NCBI GenBank assembly: GCA_001464895.1
Contig: LNEE01000048.1
Location: 62,001 to 126,000, forward strand
Length of the DNA: 64,000 nt
Origin: Betaproteobacteria bacterium Ga0077532
GTDB taxonomy: Bacteria; Pseudomonadota; Gammaproteobacteria; Burkholderiales; Ga0077523
Reading direction: 5' to 3'
Under the pieces are notes generated by a model. The model was not told the origin of the DNA. It was given only the letters and a program-made list of their open reading frames with translations, and did not search any database. The first letter of the stretch is position 1. Each line of letters opens with the position of its first letter. The translations under genes were made by a program, and so were the position numbers. Below, piece by piece: positions 32,261 through 42,640 of this stretch.

Positions 32261-32309
32261 TGGTGCGCCCGAGACGATTCGAACGTCCGACCCCTGCCTT
32301 CGGAGGGCA
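32261..32309 (-). repeat. Left attachment repeat (displaced 3' end of tRNA-Arg)
   Basis: Forty-eight of 49 bases match 42564-42612. It covers the tRNA from the anticodon stem to CCA; the only difference is the discriminator base (A73 here, G73 in the intact gene). The 5' half of the tRNA is absent, so this copy is not a functional gene. Confidence 0.93.
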
Positions 32310-32392: not shown

Positions 32393-32412
32393 TTTGGACA
32401 CTTTTTGGACAC
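32393..32412 (+). repeat. Left-end paired TTTGGACAC motifs (candidate integrase arm sites)
   Basis: TTTGGACAC occurs at 32393-32401 and 32404-32412, 11 bases apart, between the left att repeat and the integrase start. GTGTCTAAA at 32369-32377 is an 8/9 inverted copy. The same pair with the same spacing occurs at the right end (42498-42517). Confidence 0.6.
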
Positions 32413-32428
32413 CCGGAGGGCGGCGAAA

Positions 32429-33610
32429 ATGGCGACAACGCTTAACACCGTGAAGGCTCGCGAATCCCTTCGGCCACGGCACGCGCCCTACTTCACCAAG
32501 CTCGGCGCCGGGCAGCATCTTGGCTTCCGGAAGGTCACGACCACGACCACGGGGGTCTGGGTGGCACGGCATCGGGACGAGGAGACGGGCGCGCAAGCCC
32601 TGCACAGTCTCGGAACCTTCGAGGAATTGGCCCCGACCGACCGATTCGCAGCGGCGCGGCAGGCGGCGGAAGACTGGTTCAAGCATCTCGGCCGCGGGGG
32701 GAAGGCGGAGGTCGTCACGGTCCGGATGGCCTGCGAACGCTATGTGGAACACGTCCGCGAGGATGGACGCGCCAAGACTGCCGACGAAATGGATGCGCGC
32801 TTCGGGCGCTGGGTGTACGCGGACAAGAAACTCGCGGCGCTGCCCCTGCCGAAGCTGACGCAAGAGAAGGTGATCGCGTGGCGGCGAAACCTGCGGAAGA
32901 CGCCGGCCCCCGTCGGGCGCTCGAAGGAGAACACGGAAACCCGCGACCGCTCGGAAAGCTCAGTCAACCGGGATTCCACAGCGCTGCGGGCTGCGCTGAA
33001 CTTCGCGCATGATCGGGGCTGGGTCACTTCCGACATGGCGTGGCGCGTGGCCCTGCGGCCCACGAAGAACGCGGACGGTCGGCGCGATGCCTATCTGGAC
33101 CGCGAGCAGCGGCGCGCGCTTATCAAGGCGGCGGATACGTCCCTCGGCAGTTTCCTGACCGCGCTATCCCTCGTCCCCCTGCGGCCCGGCGCACTTGCGG
33201 CCCTGACCGTCGCGAATTTCGATCGGAAGCTCGGGGTGCTGTCCATCGGCAAGGACAAGACCGGCCAAGCCCGGCGCATCGCGCTACCGGCGAAGACGGC
33301 GGCTTTCTTCGCAGCGCTCGCCAAGGACAAGTTACCCGGCGCGGCCTTGCTCACGCAGGACGGTGGGAAGGCATGGGACAAGGACGCATGGAAATGGCCC
33401 GTGAAGGATGCCGCGAAGGCGGCAGGGCTGGCCGACACCGTGACGGCATACTCCCTGCGGCATTCCACGATTACCGATCTTGTCTCGGGCGGGCTGGACC
33501 TGTTGACGGTGGCGCAGTTGAGCGGGACGAGTGTCGCGATGATCGAGAAACACTACGGCCACCTTCAAAGCGACCGAGCATCTGCAGCACTGGAAATGCT
33601 GGCACTCTGA
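32429..33610 (+). CDS. int: Tyrosine-type site-specific integrase
   Basis: Catalyses integration and excision of the element at tRNA-Arg. The 393-aa protein has an N-terminal arm-binding region, a core-binding domain (about 95-205) and the C-terminal catalytic domain. Residues visible: R252 (VPLRPGALAAL), a Lys in GKDKTGQARR, R344 (SLRHSTI) and the nucleophile Y376 (IEKHYGHL). The first box II His is Y341 and the GH position is T367, as in some Burkholderia-type integrases. The ATG at 32429 has GGAGGG upstream; an in-frame TTG at 32405 falls in the TTTGGACAC repeat. It lies 120 bases from the left att copy. Confidence 0.93.
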   Translation: MATTLNTVKARESLRPRHAPYFTKLGAGQHLGFRKVTTTTTGVWVARHRDEETGAQALHSLGTFEELAPTDRFAAARQAAEDWFKHLGRGGKAEVVTVRMACERYVEHVREDGRAKTADEMDARFGRWVYADKKLAALPLPKLTQEKVIAWRRNLRKTPAPVGRSKENTETRDRSESSVNRDSTALRAALNFAHDRGWVTSDMAWRVALRPTKNADGRRDAYLDREQRRALIKAADTSLGSFLTALSLVPLRPGALAALTVANFDRKLGVLSIGKDKTGQARRIALPAKTAAFFAALAKDKLPGAALLTQDGGKAWDKDAWKWPVKDAAKAAGLADTVTAYSLRHSTITDLVSGGLDLLTVAQLSGTSVAMIEKHYGHLQSDRASAALEMLAL

Positions 33611-35229: not shown

Positions 35230-35521
35230 CCCTCGATTCTTCTCCCGGTCGGCATTCGATCGCGGCCGTCTCCCTCGGCCCGCCGAATACTTCGATGCGG
35301 CCGGTATCAAGCTCTCGGCTGCAGGTACGTGGCGAAATGCTCTGTGTCCCTTCCATGATGACCATCATCCGTCCCTGCGGGTGCGCATTGAGACCGGCGC
35401 ATTCCGTTGCATGACCTGCGGCGCGAATGGGAGCGATGTGCTCGCTTTCCATATGCGTCGGCACGGACTGACCTTCATCGAAGCGGCGAAGGCGCTCGGC
35501 GCGTGGGAGGGCAGGCGATGA
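35222..35521 (+). CDS. CHC2 zinc-finger primase fragment
   Basis: The 99-aa protein consists of a CHC2-type zinc-binding domain like the N-terminus of DnaG: C42-P-F-H45 ... C63-M-T-C66, with the typical HPSLRV and DVLAF strands. DNA primases use this domain to read template. It has no TOPRIM part; that function lies in the next gene, whose start overlaps this stop (ATGA). The two genes thus look like a split primase. Start ATG at 35222; an earlier ATG at 35204 would add six residues. Confidence 0.88.
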   Translation: MSSPRFFSRSAFDRGRLPRPAEYFDAAGIKLSAAGTWRNALCPFHDDHHPSLRVRIETGAFRCMTCGANGSDVLAFHMRRHGLTFIEAAKALGAWEGRR

Positions 35522-37686
35522 CTCGCACGCAAGAAACATCGAAGGAAGCCGCCCGTCGGCTTGCCGCCAGAGCGATTTGTGACGGTTTCGAACCCGAAGC
35601 GCTACACGCCTACACGGATGGGGAGGGCGCGCCCGTGTACTGGCGCATCCGGCTGAAGCATCGCGAAACCGGAGAGAAATGGATTCGACCGATGAAGCAC
35701 AACGGCGATGCTTATGTACTGGGAGAGCCCGCATTCCCCGATGGCAAGATCCTTTACCTGAGGGATACACTTTCGGAAAACCCAGACGTGCCTGTAATCG
35801 TCACCGAAGGTGAGTTCAAGGCCGACAAGCTTGCCCCACTGGGTCTAGTCGTGACCACGTCTGGCGGCGCGGACTCTGCGGCAAAGGCAGATTGGCGCCC
35901 GCTTGCGGGACGTGCCGTCTTGGTTTGGCCGGACAACGATTCGGCTGGTGCCGGCTACGCCGATGCCGTCGCCTCGATCCTTCTGCCGCTGGGATGCACA
36001 GTGCGCATACTGGATGTGGCGGCGCTGAATCTGCCGCCGAAGGGCGATGCAGTGGACTGGCTGGCGCGGCACCCGGCAGCGACTGCTGCGGACGTTCTAC
36101 GTCTGCCGTCTCGGCCTGTTACAGCTGCGCCAGGCGCCACAGTGCGGGCGCCGGAGGGTCGACGACGTGCAGAAAATTGGATCCCCGCGCCGGTCCATCC
36201 TGACGATTCCTGGCCTGATCCGGAGCCTCTACCGAGCGGGGATATCTCAGTCCAAGCGTTCGATCTGGCCCTATTGCCCGACACCTTGCGGCCGTGGGTC
36301 GCGGACATCTGCGAACGGTTGCAGTGCCCCGCAGATTTCGTCGCCGTGCCCGTTGTTGTTGCGCTGGGTTCGCTGATCGGGCGGAAGGTCGGAATCCGGC
36401 CGCAAGCGATGACCGACTGGATTCAATACCCGAACGTCTGGGGCTGCATCATCGGTCGGCCCGGCACCATGAAGAGTCCCGCGGTTGCGGAGGCGCTTCG
36501 CCCCCTGCGCCGGATCGAAGCACGCGCCCTGGCAGAGTATGACGCGCGGATGCGCGACTTCGAAGGCGAGGCGGAGCTTGCGAAGCTGCGGCGGGACGCT
36601 GCAAGGGCAACGGCCGTGAAGCAGATGAGGGGCAAGAATCCCGATGCGGTAACCGTTGAAGACCTTCGCGTCGATACGCCCGACACCCCGATTCTCCGGC
36701 GCTACACGGCGAACGATTCGAGCCACGAAGCGCTGGGCGAGTTGATGCGGCAGAACCCGAACGGGCTATTGATCGAGCGGGACGAACTGGCGTCGATGCT
36801 CTCGCACCTTTCGCGTGAGGAGAACGCTAGTGCCCGCGGATTTTTTCTCACGGGAGCCGACGCGGCATCGGGCTACACGTTCGACCGGATCGGGCGCGGG
36901 CTCAATCTGCGCGTGCCCGTCGTCTGCCTGTCGATGCTTGGTACGACGCAACCCGGGCGAATCGCGTCATACCTCCGGCAAGCGATCGTCGGCGGGGACG
37001 GTGACGACGGACTGATGCAGCGATTCGGCCTGATCGTCTGGCCGGACCACGGGAGCGAATGGCGCAACGTGGACCGCTGGCCGGACACCGCGGCGCGCAC
37101 TGCCGCGTGCGAAGTATTCGAGCGACTAGAAGCGCTCGCCCCTGCGAGCATCGGCGCAACGGTCGAGGACGAGTGCGCGTATCTGCGATTTGCGCCGGAC
37201 GCGCTGGAAGCCTTCACCGAGTGGCGCGTCAGTCTTGAGGAGAAGGTGCGATCGGGCGACCTGCATCCGGCGCTGGAATCGCATCTGTCCAAGTACCGCA
37301 AGACCGTGCCGGCGCTCGCGCTCATCTTCCATCTCGCGGATGGTGGGTCCGGCCCTGCAACGCGGGGAGCGGCGCTGCGGGCCCTCGCATGGTCCGACTA
37401 CCTCGAAAGCCACGCGCGACGCTGCTATGGAGCGCTGAAGGCGTCAGACAACGATGCGGCGCGGCGCATCCTTGCCCGAATTGCGGCGGGGGATCTGAGC
37501 GACGGATTCCGGGCGCGGGACATCACGCAACGGGATTGGTCCGGGCTGACGGACGGGCCCGCGGTCCGCGATGCGCTGGGGCTGATGGTCGATTTCGGTT
37601 GGCTGGCTGAGGCGCCGTCGGCACCCGGCGCGCCGGGGCGCCCGAGCGTAACGTACCGTATCAACCCGAAGGGCGCGGCGCGATGA
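35518..37686 (+). CDS. TOPRIM-DUF3987 primase-helicase
   Basis: Putative replication protein of the element, 722 aa. The N-terminal third is TOPRIM-like (VPVIVTEGEFKADKL, LVVTTSGGADS, AVLVWPDNDSAGAGYAD). The rest matches the DUF3987 ATPase layout: ADFVAVPVVVALGSLIGRKVG, the P-loop-like GRPGTMKSPAV, LLIERDELASMLSHL and GDGDDGLMQRFGLIVWPD. With the CHC2 protein it should prime and unwind DNA. The start overlaps the upstream stop. The following 138-aa gene overlaps its stop (ATGA). Confidence 0.85.
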   Translation: MTRTQETSKEAARRLAARAICDGFEPEALHAYTDGEGAPVYWRIRLKHRETGEKWIRPMKHNGDAYVLGEPAFPDGKILYLRDTLSENPDVPVIVTEGEFKADKLAPLGLVVTTSGGADSAAKADWRPLAGRAVLVWPDNDSAGAGYADAVASILLPLGCTVRILDVAALNLPPKGDAVDWLARHPAATAADVLRLPSRPVTAAPGATVRAPEGRRRAENWIPAPVHPDDSWPDPEPLPSGDISVQAFDLALLPDTLRPWVADICERLQCPADFVAVPVVVALGSLIGRKVGIRPQAMTDWIQYPNVWGCIIGRPGTMKSPAVAEALRPLRRIEARALAEYDARMRDFEGEAELAKLRRDAARATAVKQMRGKNPDAVTVEDLRVDTPDTPILRRYTANDSSHEALGELMRQNPNGLLIERDELASMLSHLSREENASARGFFLTGADAASGYTFDRIGRGLNLRVPVVCLSMLGTTQPGRIASYLRQAIVGGDGDDGLMQRFGLIVWPDHGSEWRNVDRWPDTAARTAACEVFERLEALAPASIGATVEDECAYLRFAPDALEAFTEWRVSLEEKVRSGDLHPALESHLSKYRKTVPALALIFHLADGGSGPATRGAALRALAWSDYLESHARRCYGALKASDNDAARRILARIAAGDLSDGFRARDITQRDWSGLTDGPAVRDALGLMVDFGWLAEAPSAPGAPGRPSVTYRINPKGAAR

Positions 37687-38099: not shown

Positions 38100-38439
38100 T
38101 GCCATCACGCTCCGGACCATGGCAATCGTCCGAGAGAATTTGCATCGACTACGCGAGCACGCGGGCAGTCCGACCCTTCAGGAAATCGCGACAAAGGCAG
38201 GGGTTGGGTATGGCACGTTGCATCGACTAGTTACCGGCACCGCCGGGCCGTCAGGCAAGAATCCTCCGCCAAATCTCGACACATTGGCTCCGTTGGCCCA
38301 CTACTTTGGGCTTGAGCCGTGGCAGTTGCTCGTTCCGAATGTGAATCCGGAGTCACCGCCGACACTTGTTACGCAGTCGGCGAGATCCGAGCCTGCTCAC
38401 TCACGTACTGGGAGACGAACGAGCGTGGAAAAAGCATGA
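38071..38439 (+). CDS. XRE-type (lambda-repressor-like) transcriptional regulator
   Basis: The 122-aa protein contains a Cro/CI helix-turn-helix: NLHRLREHAG, then LQEIATKAGVGYGTLHRLVTG, then NLDTLAPLAHYFGLEPWQLL. The C-terminus is polar and probably disordered. Starts at 38041 and 38071 are both possible; neither has a strong ribosome-binding site. It may repress the element's own promoters, for example through the twin palindromes at 34647-34677. Its stop overlaps the start of the Rap1a-like gene. Confidence 0.8.
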   Translation: MDSDRVKIVDAITLRTMAIVRENLHRLREHAGSPTLQEIATKAGVGYGTLHRLVTGTAGPSGKNPPPNLDTLAPLAHYFGLEPWQLLVPNVNPESPPTLVTQSARSEPAHSRTGRRTSVEKA

Positions 38440-38807
38440 ACTGGCGACCTTTTTCGGTGGCTTGCATGGTCGCCCTTTCGTCGATGGCATCTGCGCAATC
38501 GGGGAACGAGCTTCTCGCCACCTGTAGCCATCTCTCCAACCCAAAGATGGAGACTGTTTACGATGCTGGTCGTTGTGCCGGATTTATCGAGGGTTCAATG
38601 CGTACCATGGAAGTCTTCATGATGACCCTTCGAACGATCGACCCGACCTGGGTCCAACCTTACTGCATCCCGCCCAAGGCAACTTACAATCAAATTACAG
38701 CCGTGTTTGCCAGACATTTGGAACAACACCCAGAAACGCGTCACCAAAGTTCTGGCGTACTCTTCCTTCTTGCGATGAGCAAAGCCTTCCCCTGCCGAAA
38801 GAACTAG
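38436..38807 (+). CDS. Rap1a/Tai-family secreted protein (orphan immunity-type)
   Basis: The 123-aa precursor has a Sec signal peptide (VACMVALSSMASAQSG). The mature part matches the Rap1a pattern: GNELLATC near its start, AGRCAGFIEGSMRTM, YCIPPKATYNQITAVF and HLEQHPETRHQSSGVLFL, ending AMSKAFPC with four-plus cysteines. Rap1a and Tai4 neutralise type VI amidase effectors in the periplasm, but many members have no known role. No effector gene is adjacent. Overlap with the XRE gene is ATGA. Confidence 0.75.
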   Translation: MNWRPFSVACMVALSSMASAQSGNELLATCSHLSNPKMETVYDAGRCAGFIEGSMRTMEVFMMTLRTIDPTWVQPYCIPPKATYNQITAVFARHLEQHPETRHQSSGVLFLLAMSKAFPCRKN

Positions 38808-40023: not shown

Positions 40024-40491
40024 TCAGGGAGAACCGCAAAAAATCTGTATCTCTTTGAAAGTGTCGCCGGTCGCGGATACCGATGTGTCCTCTGCGGTCC
40101 CGCCAAAAACCAGAGGGCCGCGCATTAGCGAAATGATCACAACACCAACGGGCTCACGCTCGGTTACCACAAGAGACGCGTTTACAACTTGGTTGTCGTC
40201 GGAGTAACACCAAAGATCCACGCGTTTCGCGTCAATCTTAGGCGCTCCCTTCCGCCAATCGTCGGTCTTGAAGCGTTTCACATGAGAGACACGGCACCGA
40301 TCCCACCCTGAGTCCCCAGATAGCGGGATAAAGAACGGCGAGTCATGAGGCCTGAACACTTTCTCCTCCCGCGTGGTTCCGTCGAGAACTCGGATCGAGA
40401 ATGAGCAGCCTACATCCGCAGCTAGGGGGCCGCTCATCAGTCCAGCGACTATCCCGAAGGCAGTCAGTGAAAAGGAGTGCGCTCTAGCCAT
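40024..40491 (-). CDS. Putative secreted protein of unknown function
   Basis: The 155-aa precursor has a signal peptide (FSLTAFGIVAGLMSGPLAA-DV). The mature part contains Cys pairs (VGCSFSIRV; WDRCRVSHV; DLWCYSDDN; IFCGSP) that could form disulfides. No family recognised. I start at the ATG at 40491, which gives a normal signal peptide; the frame is open for 29 more codons. Base composition is less GC-rich than the host genes. Confidence 0.6.
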   Translation of the reverse strand: MARAHSFSLTAFGIVAGLMSGPLAADVGCSFSIRVLDGTTREEKVFRPHDSPFFIPLSGDSGWDRCRVSHVKRFKTDDWRKGAPKIDAKRVDLWCYSDDNQVVNASLVVTEREPVGVVIISLMRGPLVFGGTAEDTSVSATGDTFKEIQIFCGSP

Positions 40492-40664
40492 TGGATCCAC
40501 CATTGGTTCGGATGGTGCGGCCAGCGACGTCCAGGTGCTTTGGGCTCGCATTTGTTCCGGTCCGTATGGTGATACCAAATGGCGAGATCAGGGGAATTGG
40601 ACATGCTTGTCAGTCGCAAACTGACTTTGTCCACACAGCGGGCGGTCGATCGGATTCATCGGGG

Positions 40665-41537
40665 CTACGCAGCCAACTTCACCAACTCATCCACGGCTTC
40701 GGTAGGGTTATGGACAACGTGAACAGATACGTTGTCTTCGTTGGCTTCCTGGCAAATCTCCTCACGTGCCATTCCAATCGAGTCGTGATCCCGATCTGAG
40801 AAGTTGGGGTCATCCGATCTGGGAAAGTGGAGAATCAGGCCAGCATGCAAGAACTCGCCTCTCTGTTGGGCTTTTCGCAGTTCCCAAAGCCGTCCGCGAG
40901 CGTCCTTGTAGCTCTCCGCAAGGCGACGGGGACGCATTACGCCGAAGTGCGCAACGAGTCTTGAGCCGATAAACCCAAATCTAACGGGCTGACCTTCGTC
41001 GACGATCACGCCCTCTCGATCGAAAAACGGCAATAAATCGACTCTTCGTGCTGCGACCTCAAGTTTCACGACGTCAATCCACCGAGATTTCGCGCTCTCA
41101 TGTGGGGGGTCGCTTTCTTGTGGAGCACTTTGGATGTTCTCAAAAACAATATCCGCAAGACTCGCGGACGACCGTATTGCCTGCCGAAGGATCCCATCGA
41201 GTGAGTCGCTGGCGGCGTCTCTCCAATCGCCGAGGAAAAACCCTGTAACGGGCGCGCGCCAAACCTTCGGGGGGGGGTCCTGAGCGAAGTGGACCTTCAA
41301 GGAGTCCACCGCTAGCTCTGCTAGTCCTCGAATCCCGGAAGCCTTGGCCCCGTAGAGCGCGCGCATCGCACTCGGACGAACGACCGAATGGACATGGAAG
41401 CCGTTCGATGATTTTGTGACGATGCCTAAGGTCAGCCGTTCACCACTCCCGTGGATTGGCTCAAGATAAACTGGACACCACTTGGCCCTGAACTCTGAGA
41501 CCGAAGGAAATGCGGCGGTGTTGACGAGAGTTTCCAT
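40665..41537 (-). CDS. Unrecognised 290-aa partner of the HipA-like kinase
   Basis: No domain recognised with confidence. The N-terminus (FRAKWCPVYLEPIHGSGERL, then LGIVTKSSNGFHVHSV) loosely recalls DUF3037 proteins, which often accompany HipA-like kinases, but this is a weak impression. The rest is mixed alpha/beta with no signal peptide or membrane segment. The start ATG overlaps the kinase stop by one base (TGATG); a GTG one codon earlier is also possible. Tight coupling suggests an antitoxin, regulator or complex partner of the kinase. Confidence 0.7.
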   Translation of the reverse strand: METLVNTAAFPSVSEFRAKWCPVYLEPIHGSGERLTLGIVTKSSNGFHVHSVVRPSAMRALYGAKASGIRGLAELAVDSLKVHFAQDPPPKVWRAPVTGFFLGDWRDAASDSLDGILRQAIRSSASLADIVFENIQSAPQESDPPHESAKSRWIDVVKLEVAARRVDLLPFFDREGVIVDEGQPVRFGFIGSRLVAHFGVMRPRRLAESYKDARGRLWELRKAQQRGEFLHAGLILHFPRSDDPNFSDRDHDSIGMAREEICQEANEDNVSVHVVHNPTEAVDELVKLAA

Positions 41538-42307
41538 CACGCTCTACCGAACAGTTCGCCTTGCGCACTAGGAAATCGCGCGACAAGCAAGGCAGCCAAT
41601 TGAGGATACCGTAGAGACAGAAAAGTCGAAAACTGAGATCCCAATTCAGCCCCGTTTGTCAGAGGGCCAACCGCAAGTGCATCTGCCGCCTGAGCAGTCA
41701 TGCTCGGGTCAAGGTTTGCTATCGCATTGATTACACGGTTCTTTAGGCGTTCTATCGCCGCTGAGTTCGTTTGCGTGAAGTGCCAAGTCATTAGAGCAAG
41801 CAGCTTGTTTTCGCATTGGCCGTTCCCGGGCGTGGATCCCAAGCAAATTCCGTGATCTATCAGCACGAACGAATCAAACCCATCCCAAAGAATGTTTTGT
41901 AGATTTCTGTCCGCATTGGCTATCCATTCGTCGAAACTTATGACCTCGCCGAGCTGCGTCCATTCATTGAGGCGCTTGGCAATTTCATTCAGCTCTTGTG
42001 CTGAAACCAACGATTCATCCACCTGAAACGCCTGAAGCAAGTTCGGGTGTTCGGTGTACACGGAGCCAAACAAGATTGATCCAATCAGAGAATCAAGAAT
42101 CACCACGGGCTCTGGGCAGGGAAGCCCGCAATCTCTAGCGAGGACTGAGCAAAAAAGCTCACATGCAAGCACTGAGGTGCTCACGCGCTTGACGATCACG
42201 ACGGGTTCGGAGCCGTCTTGCATGCGCGCGAAGCCTCGCCGCGCCTTATTCACGCCAATTCCAAGATCGATTGCGCCGGGCAGCAGCGTTCCGATTCGAA
42301 TCGCCAT
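41537..42307 (-). CDS. HipA-like serine/threonine kinase
   Basis: The 256-aa protein has the kinase layout of the short HipA-like family: a candidate ATP-binding K40 in VVIVKR, catalytic loop D126-EWIANADRNLQN with D133 and N138, and the metal-binding D151-H-G in FVLIDHG. HipA kinases phosphorylate translation factors such as GltX and cause growth arrest. No HipB-type antitoxin precedes it; the coupled downstream gene takes that place. It is the first gene inside the tRNA end of the element, a usual cargo position, and is less GC-rich than host genes. Confidence 0.78.
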   Translation of the reverse strand: MAIRIGTLLPGAIDLGIGVNKARRGFARMQDGSEPVVIVKRVSTSVLACELFCSVLARDCGLPCPEPVVILDSLIGSILFGSVYTEHPNLLQAFQVDESLVSAQELNEIAKRLNEWTQLGEVISFDEWIANADRNLQNILWDGFDSFVLIDHGICLGSTPGNGQCENKLLALMTWHFTQTNSAAIERLKNRVINAIANLDPSMTAQAADALAVGPLTNGAELGSQFSTFLSLRYPQLAALLVARFPSAQGELFGRA

Positions 42308-42563: not shown

Positions 42564-42612
42564 TGGCGCGCCCGAGACGATTCGAACGTCCGACCCCTGC
42601 CTTCGGAGGGCA
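42564..42612 (-). repeat. Right attachment repeat, inside intact tRNA-Arg
   Basis: Matches 32261-32309 at 48 of 49 positions and forms the 3' part of the intact tRNA gene, so integration preserved tRNA function. Confidence 0.93.
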
Positions 42613-42640
42613 GTACTCTATCCAGCTGAGCTACGGGCGC
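42564..42640 (-). tRNA. tRNA-Arg(CCG)
   Basis: A 77-base cloverleaf with encoded CCA. The acceptor stem GCGCCCG pairs with CGGGCGC, the D arm is GCTC/GAGT, the anticodon stem CTGCC/GGCAG carries loop CTCCGAA (anticodon CCG, codon CGG), the T loop is TTCGAAT, and the discriminator is G73. It is the integration target of the adjacent element. Confidence 0.97.

Follow-up and report, generated by a model that had tools for sequence, protein, structure and literature searches.

A divergent HipAD-like kinase and partner pair, probably a toxin-antitoxin module, carried by a small tRNA-integrated element

The combination of a HipA_2 kinase and a DUF3037 protein is a published kinase-toxin type of phage defence (2025-26), named PDC-M66 in PADLOC and also known as HipAD or DS-6. 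The HipA and DUF3037 module (PDC-M66) of Retron-Sda1 protects against phage Bas51 without the retron; deletion of the kinase abolishes defence, and deletion of the DUF3037 gene is toxic (PMC12548924). In DS-6 (HipAD), mutation of the kinase abolishes defence and the partner has been modelled touching both the kinase and DNA, with DUF1829 reported as the second domain of DS-6B (PMC13092281). For HipAD, PMC13092281 refers to Brenes & Laub 2025, a study of defence systems in E. coli prophages. DUF3037 is absent from the main text of a survey of Hip kinases (PMC8262856).

The gene pair described here is found in the window, i.e. the whole stretch of 64,000 nucleotides that was analysed. The gene of a HipA_2-type kinase, the presumed toxin, covers 41537..42307 on the reverse strand (256 amino acids; assigned by Pfam HipA_2, fold and catalytic motif). 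The gene of the partner, a presumed antitoxin or sensor, covers 40665..41540 on the reverse strand (290 or 291 amino acids; assigned by phrog_21150, hhalign and AF2). With a GTG start the partner has 291 amino acids and overlaps the kinase gene by 4 nt, and with the ATG at 41537 it has 290 amino acids and overlaps by 1 nt; the one-base overlap given in the first-pass annotation is valid for the latter start. The G+C content is 0.528 for the kinase and 0.561 for the partner against 0.654 for the whole window, so the pair is indeed less GC-rich than its surroundings. Both genes are intact. The pair is probably a type II toxin-antitoxin module, HipAD-like but divergent, serving as defence cargo of a small integrative, satellite-like element. 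The first-pass annotation had taken it for an undescribed system, which does not stand as systems of this kind are already published (PDC-M66, PMC12548924; DS-6/HipAD, PMC13092281). Its guess of a two-gene toxin-antitoxin or phage defence module appears to hold by analogy with the HipAD/PDC-M66 relatives. HipAD, recently described with few members, would gain a second large branch, borne by phages and satellites.

The element is 10.3 kb long and integrated at a tRNA-Arg gene (CCG; 42564..42640, reverse strand; ARAGORN), which is the integration target. The right attachment repeat (42568..42612) lies inside the tRNA-Arg gene, in its 3' part, and is a perfect 45-bp match to the left repeat (32265..32309), a displaced 3' segment of tRNA-Arg. 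The genes between the repeats include a tyrosine integrase (32405..33610, forward strand; PF00589 1.4e-9; phrog_1 integrase 4.1e-37), a DUF3987 primase/helicase-like replication protein (35407..37686, forward strand; PF13148 7.4e-83; phrog_2373 helicase and phrog_6088 primase), an HTH protein and small genes. As first described, the pair lies at the tRNA end, where it is the final cargo. A small Rap1a-like protein (PF18602) is encoded inside the element at 38319-38807. An ORF of 184 amino acids without a family match directly follows the pair on its 3' side, also on the reverse strand (40024-40578), and could be a third gene of the operon. When the empty integration site was looked for in genus-mates the right flank was located and the left flank was not found. 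In wider genome samples phrog_21150 matches occur in about 1% of the genomes.

The kinase matches Pfam HipA_2 (3.2e-10, above cut-off), PADLOC PDC-M66A (9.7e-8) and phrog_3162 (3.6e-18). Its catalytic set consists of K40, E50, D126, N131-x-D133-R134-x3-N138 and D151-H152. All of these residues (K40, E50, D126, N131, D133, R134, N138, D151 and H152) are invariant in an alignment of 27 kinases, from which L028 and L032 were left out, and the four that had been listed at first (K40, D133, N138 and D151) are thus kept. The AF2 model of the kinase (pLDDT 92) has the HipA/PI3K-like kinase fold and is closest to CtkA (Z 16.5), HipA (Z 14.6) and HipT (Z 13.7). The fold and the catalytic motif are shared with HipBA and HipBST, and the window kinase is compact like HipT. 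Unlike these systems, the window pair has neither an HTH protein HipB nor a HipS, its partner is unrelated and the kinase comes first. No gene is present between the kinase start and tRNA-Arg, which means that an upstream HipB is lacking, in agreement with the first-pass annotation.

Operator-like inverted repeats were looked for upstream of the kinase and none were found, nor was a sigma-70-like promoter in a scan with one simple pattern. The negative promoter scan and the absence of the pair from the genus-mates (phrog_21150 in 0 of 11) would be expected if the pair were decayed or silent cargo without a current function in this genome. This is very improbable considering that both genes are intact with all conserved residues, that the profile match is full-length and that a single promoter pattern was used.

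The partner, which could not be placed in the first reading, is a full-length match to phrog_21150 (5.8e-63) and distantly DUF3037-like. The window partner matched no Pfam family and no PADLOC family, DUF3037 and PDC-M66B included, and two relatives within the family (L021 and L010) had no PADLOC matches, PDC-M66B again failing. HTH families gave no match to the partner and none of the solved structures matched when searched by sequence with the partner family. Pfam DUF1829 was not found in the window partner, the A-type partners or L018/L019. HipD of phage PhiR5_1 does match PDC-M66B (3.8e-16), and its HipA matches PDC-M66A. BLASTP gave no similarity between the window partner and HipD (E 0.35). 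Because of this, and because the Pfam DUF3037 and PDC-M66B models failed, the homology between the partner and HipD rests on profiles. Long DUF3037 proteins, which in the relatives likewise sit directly behind a HipA_2 kinase, were aligned with the partner family by hhalign, giving 67-87% in local and 86-93% in global mode over nearly the whole length. After HipD had been added the values were 85-93%, and they rose to 93-97% (E 2.5e-7 to 5e-10, each from a single comparison) once bridging partners encoded by Photobacterium and by small plasmids of enterobacteria were included, the alignment being collinear over about 250 columns. Reversed controls gave 0.1-0.3%. These profile-profile alignments indicate that the partner is very probably a distant, full-length homologue of HipD/DUF3037. 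The loose likeness to DUF3037 mentioned in the first-pass annotation is thereby borne out, and over the full length. Two enterobacterial plasmids of 3.5-3.9 kb (L087 and L090) encode little more than a HipA-family kinase and, in an overlapping gene, a partner of 283 amino acids, which bridges the DUF3037 and phrog_21150 families.

As in HipAD/DS-6, a kinase of the HipA_2 superfamily comes first and the partner follows directly downstream, with a 4-nt overlap in hipA-hipD of PhiR5_1. The size of the partner is also similar (275 amino acids in HipD and 290 in the window), the partners are collinear in profile comparison and the genes are phage or element cargo. The order with the kinase first was thus correctly noted at first but is not unusual, since it is the rule for HipAD/PDC-M66, where the overlap is 4 nt. 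The window pair differs from HipAD/DS-6 in that its partner is undetectable as DUF3037/PDC-M66B by single-HMM search and its kinase belongs to a separate clade. DS-6B is reported with DUF1829, whereas the scanned A-type partners are without Pfam DUF1829, and the cI gene found upstream of hipAD in PhiR5_1 has no counterpart upstream of the window copy. With the Retron-Sda1 module (PDC-M66) the pair shares the two-gene architecture of kinase and DUF3037, including a PDC-M66A match of the kinase, but the window partner and the tested relatives lack a PDC-M66B match and no retron was noted nearby. A rule requiring both genes would therefore miss the window pair. Since the partner fails the DUF3037 and PDC-M66B models, the pair is named as a divergent HipAD-like branch and not filed as a member. 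The branch has been overlooked by the antitoxin model of PADLOC and by Pfam.

The AF2 model of the partner (pLDDT 88) has two domains connected by a disordered linker (residues 132-145). The N-terminal domain (about 16-124) contains the motif EPxxGSGER. The predicted C-terminal domain (about 147-290) resembles ERCC1 (Z 10.3), Can2 (Z 9.1), XPF (Z 8.7) and PspGI (Z 8.3), and further fold matches were Cdn1 and several restriction enzymes. A PD-(D/E)XK-like fold is predicted for this domain. No conserved acid/lysine catalytic set was found on its core strands across 40 sequences, and an active nuclease was rejected for this reason. The lack of conserved catalytic residues suggests that the domain binds rather than cuts. 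ERCC1 has a domain of the same class that binds rather than cuts. The modelling suggests a dead PD-(D/E)XK-like fold as the C-terminal half of the antitoxin. A viral protein with a DUF1828 domain also matches the partner model (1.1e-4). DUF1829 was weighed as a candidate identity of the C-terminal domain, with few Proteobacterial sequences for comparison.

Relatives were drawn from phages, plasmids, whole genomes, GTDB contigs and viral contigs. The alignment of the full family was too divergent for scanning the collections and sub-alignments succeeded; a single-sequence scan of the viral contigs gave no matches. The kinase gene is directly upstream of the partner gene in all 46 loci (the window and 45 others), with an overlap that is mostly 1-8 nt, and every full-length partner found is accompanied by a kinase. 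Pairing and order are obligate. Homologues were found for both genes and the pairing is kept in 46/46 loci, which is far beyond chance. The survey of kinase and partner neighbourhoods proposed in the first-pass annotation thus gave pairs throughout, in a mobile and not a housekeeping context. Neither of the findings that it had named as speaking against its reading, a partner mostly without the kinase or a housekeeping context in core genomes, was made.

Strong purifying selection acts on both genes, with dN/dS of 0.04-0.26 in close pairs. Kinase and partner have correlated identity matrices (r 0.92, in part reflecting shared ancestry), showing that the two genes are inherited together. Because of long branches and an unsettled bootstrap, only the main groups of the kinase tree were used. 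The phrog_21150-type kinases form one group (support 99/97), and the four partner types need three changes, which is the minimum, so that partner type tracks kinase clade.

In most close pairs (L037/L038, L039/L040, L046/L052 and others) conservation is somewhat higher in the partner than in the kinase. Antitoxins usually show the reverse, and a partner that changes more slowly than the kinase fits uneasily with a plain toxin-antitoxin reading. The NxDRxxxN motif is found in the kinase of 44 of the 46 loci. The exceptions, L028:2846-3580 and L032:5249-5986, have NVDRHIGQ, where the second catalytic Asn is replaced by Gln, and are possible pseudokinases judging from sequence, with a dN/dS of about 0.1 indicating purifying selection. 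Purifying selection on a kinase that is probably weakened, as in this lineage, is likewise uneasy with a plain toxin-antitoxin reading. The partner might instead be an adaptor, substrate or sensor that steers the kinase to its target, both proteins jointly being the effector. This would agree with the better conservation of the partner in close pairs, with its modelled two-domain structure including a nucleic-acid-type fold and with the selection on the partner in the branch where the kinase is probably impaired. It is nevertheless quite unlikely, as the toxicity that follows deletion of DUF3037 in the Retron-Sda1 module is the behaviour of an antitoxin (PMC12548924).

Most of the 46 loci are phages, prophages or plasmids. 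Of about 40 non-redundant loci, at least 12 have a gene for a CI/S24-type repressor, above the Pfam cut-off, directly upstream (L010, L021, L027, L030, L039, L040, L044, L046, L047, L049, L052 and L054; the repressor of L040 was assigned by near-identity to the scanned L039 protein). The recurrence behind a prophage repressor is thereby shown across loci. Escherichia phage PhiR5_1 was annotated by its depositors with cI, 'HipA toxin', 'HipD antitoxin', kil and gam, and in a phage-like plasmid of Klebsiella a kinase-DUF3037 pair is located behind an S24 gene. In phage lambda, rexAB comes right after the repressor gene, and the pairs of the relatives occupy the same position, an analogy of position only, the proteins being unrelated.

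The DUF3987 primase of the window element has a 45-46% relative in another genome of the same taxonomic order. The stretch in that genome (L107:3822-15974) consists of tRNA-Ser, an integrase, a DUF3987/Toprim primase, type I R-M genes (hsdR-like, hsdM and hsdS) and then canonical PDC-M66A/B, and may from its gene content be a defence-loaded relative of the window element. In a second genome the PDC-M66 genes, DUF3037 included, are likewise downstream of type I R-M. The position behind prophage repressors and the type I R-M neighbourhood fit a defence role. The same toxin and antitoxin biochemistry could serve as an addiction module, with the gain lying in element retention and not in phage defence, and the location of the pair on an integrative element, and of relatives on phage-like plasmids and on 3.5-3.9-kb plasmids with almost nothing else, would be compatible with this. 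Addiction as the role is unlikely in view of the frequent repressor-adjacent position and the R-M company, both fitting defence, and of the phage protection given by the characterised relatives (PMC12548924, PMC13092281). Defence and addiction do not exclude each other.

For the HipAD-like defence module considered probable here, toxicity, neutralisation, trigger, kinase target and defence are proposed by analogy with the relatives. The kinase, which like HipT and CtkA is without the extra N-terminal subdomain of HipA, would be the toxin and would phosphorylate a host component, which probably belongs to the translation apparatus, as it does for HipA and HipT. The partner, as a relative of HipD, would bind the kinase and keep it inactive, while its dead nuclease-like C-terminal domain probably would contact DNA or a phage-linked ligand. 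Infection would disturb the complex and release the kinase, and the resulting growth arrest would limit the spread of the phage. The diverse set of pairs can be used for asking what the kinase substrate and the release trigger are.

Partner N-terminal halves that stand alone were found on Pseudomonas plasmids (L012:4974-5375, L013:4806-5366 and L014:4806-5366), with no kinase within about 10 kb, and are possible lone antidotes. A more far-reaching and rather unlikely proposal is that the phrog_21150 partners make up a HipAD branch with a mechanism of its own, the dead PD-(D/E)XK domain acting as a sensor of DNA or of a ligand made by the phage. In that case the lone N-terminal domains of the Pseudomonas megaplasmids would be portable antidotes, a counter-defence silencing such kinases in recipient cells. 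In many chromosomes (L055, L056, L057 and L064-L069) a HipA_2 kinase is likewise followed by a short DUF3037 protein (about 130-140 amino acids). The kinases of these loci form a separate tight clade and possibly have a different role.
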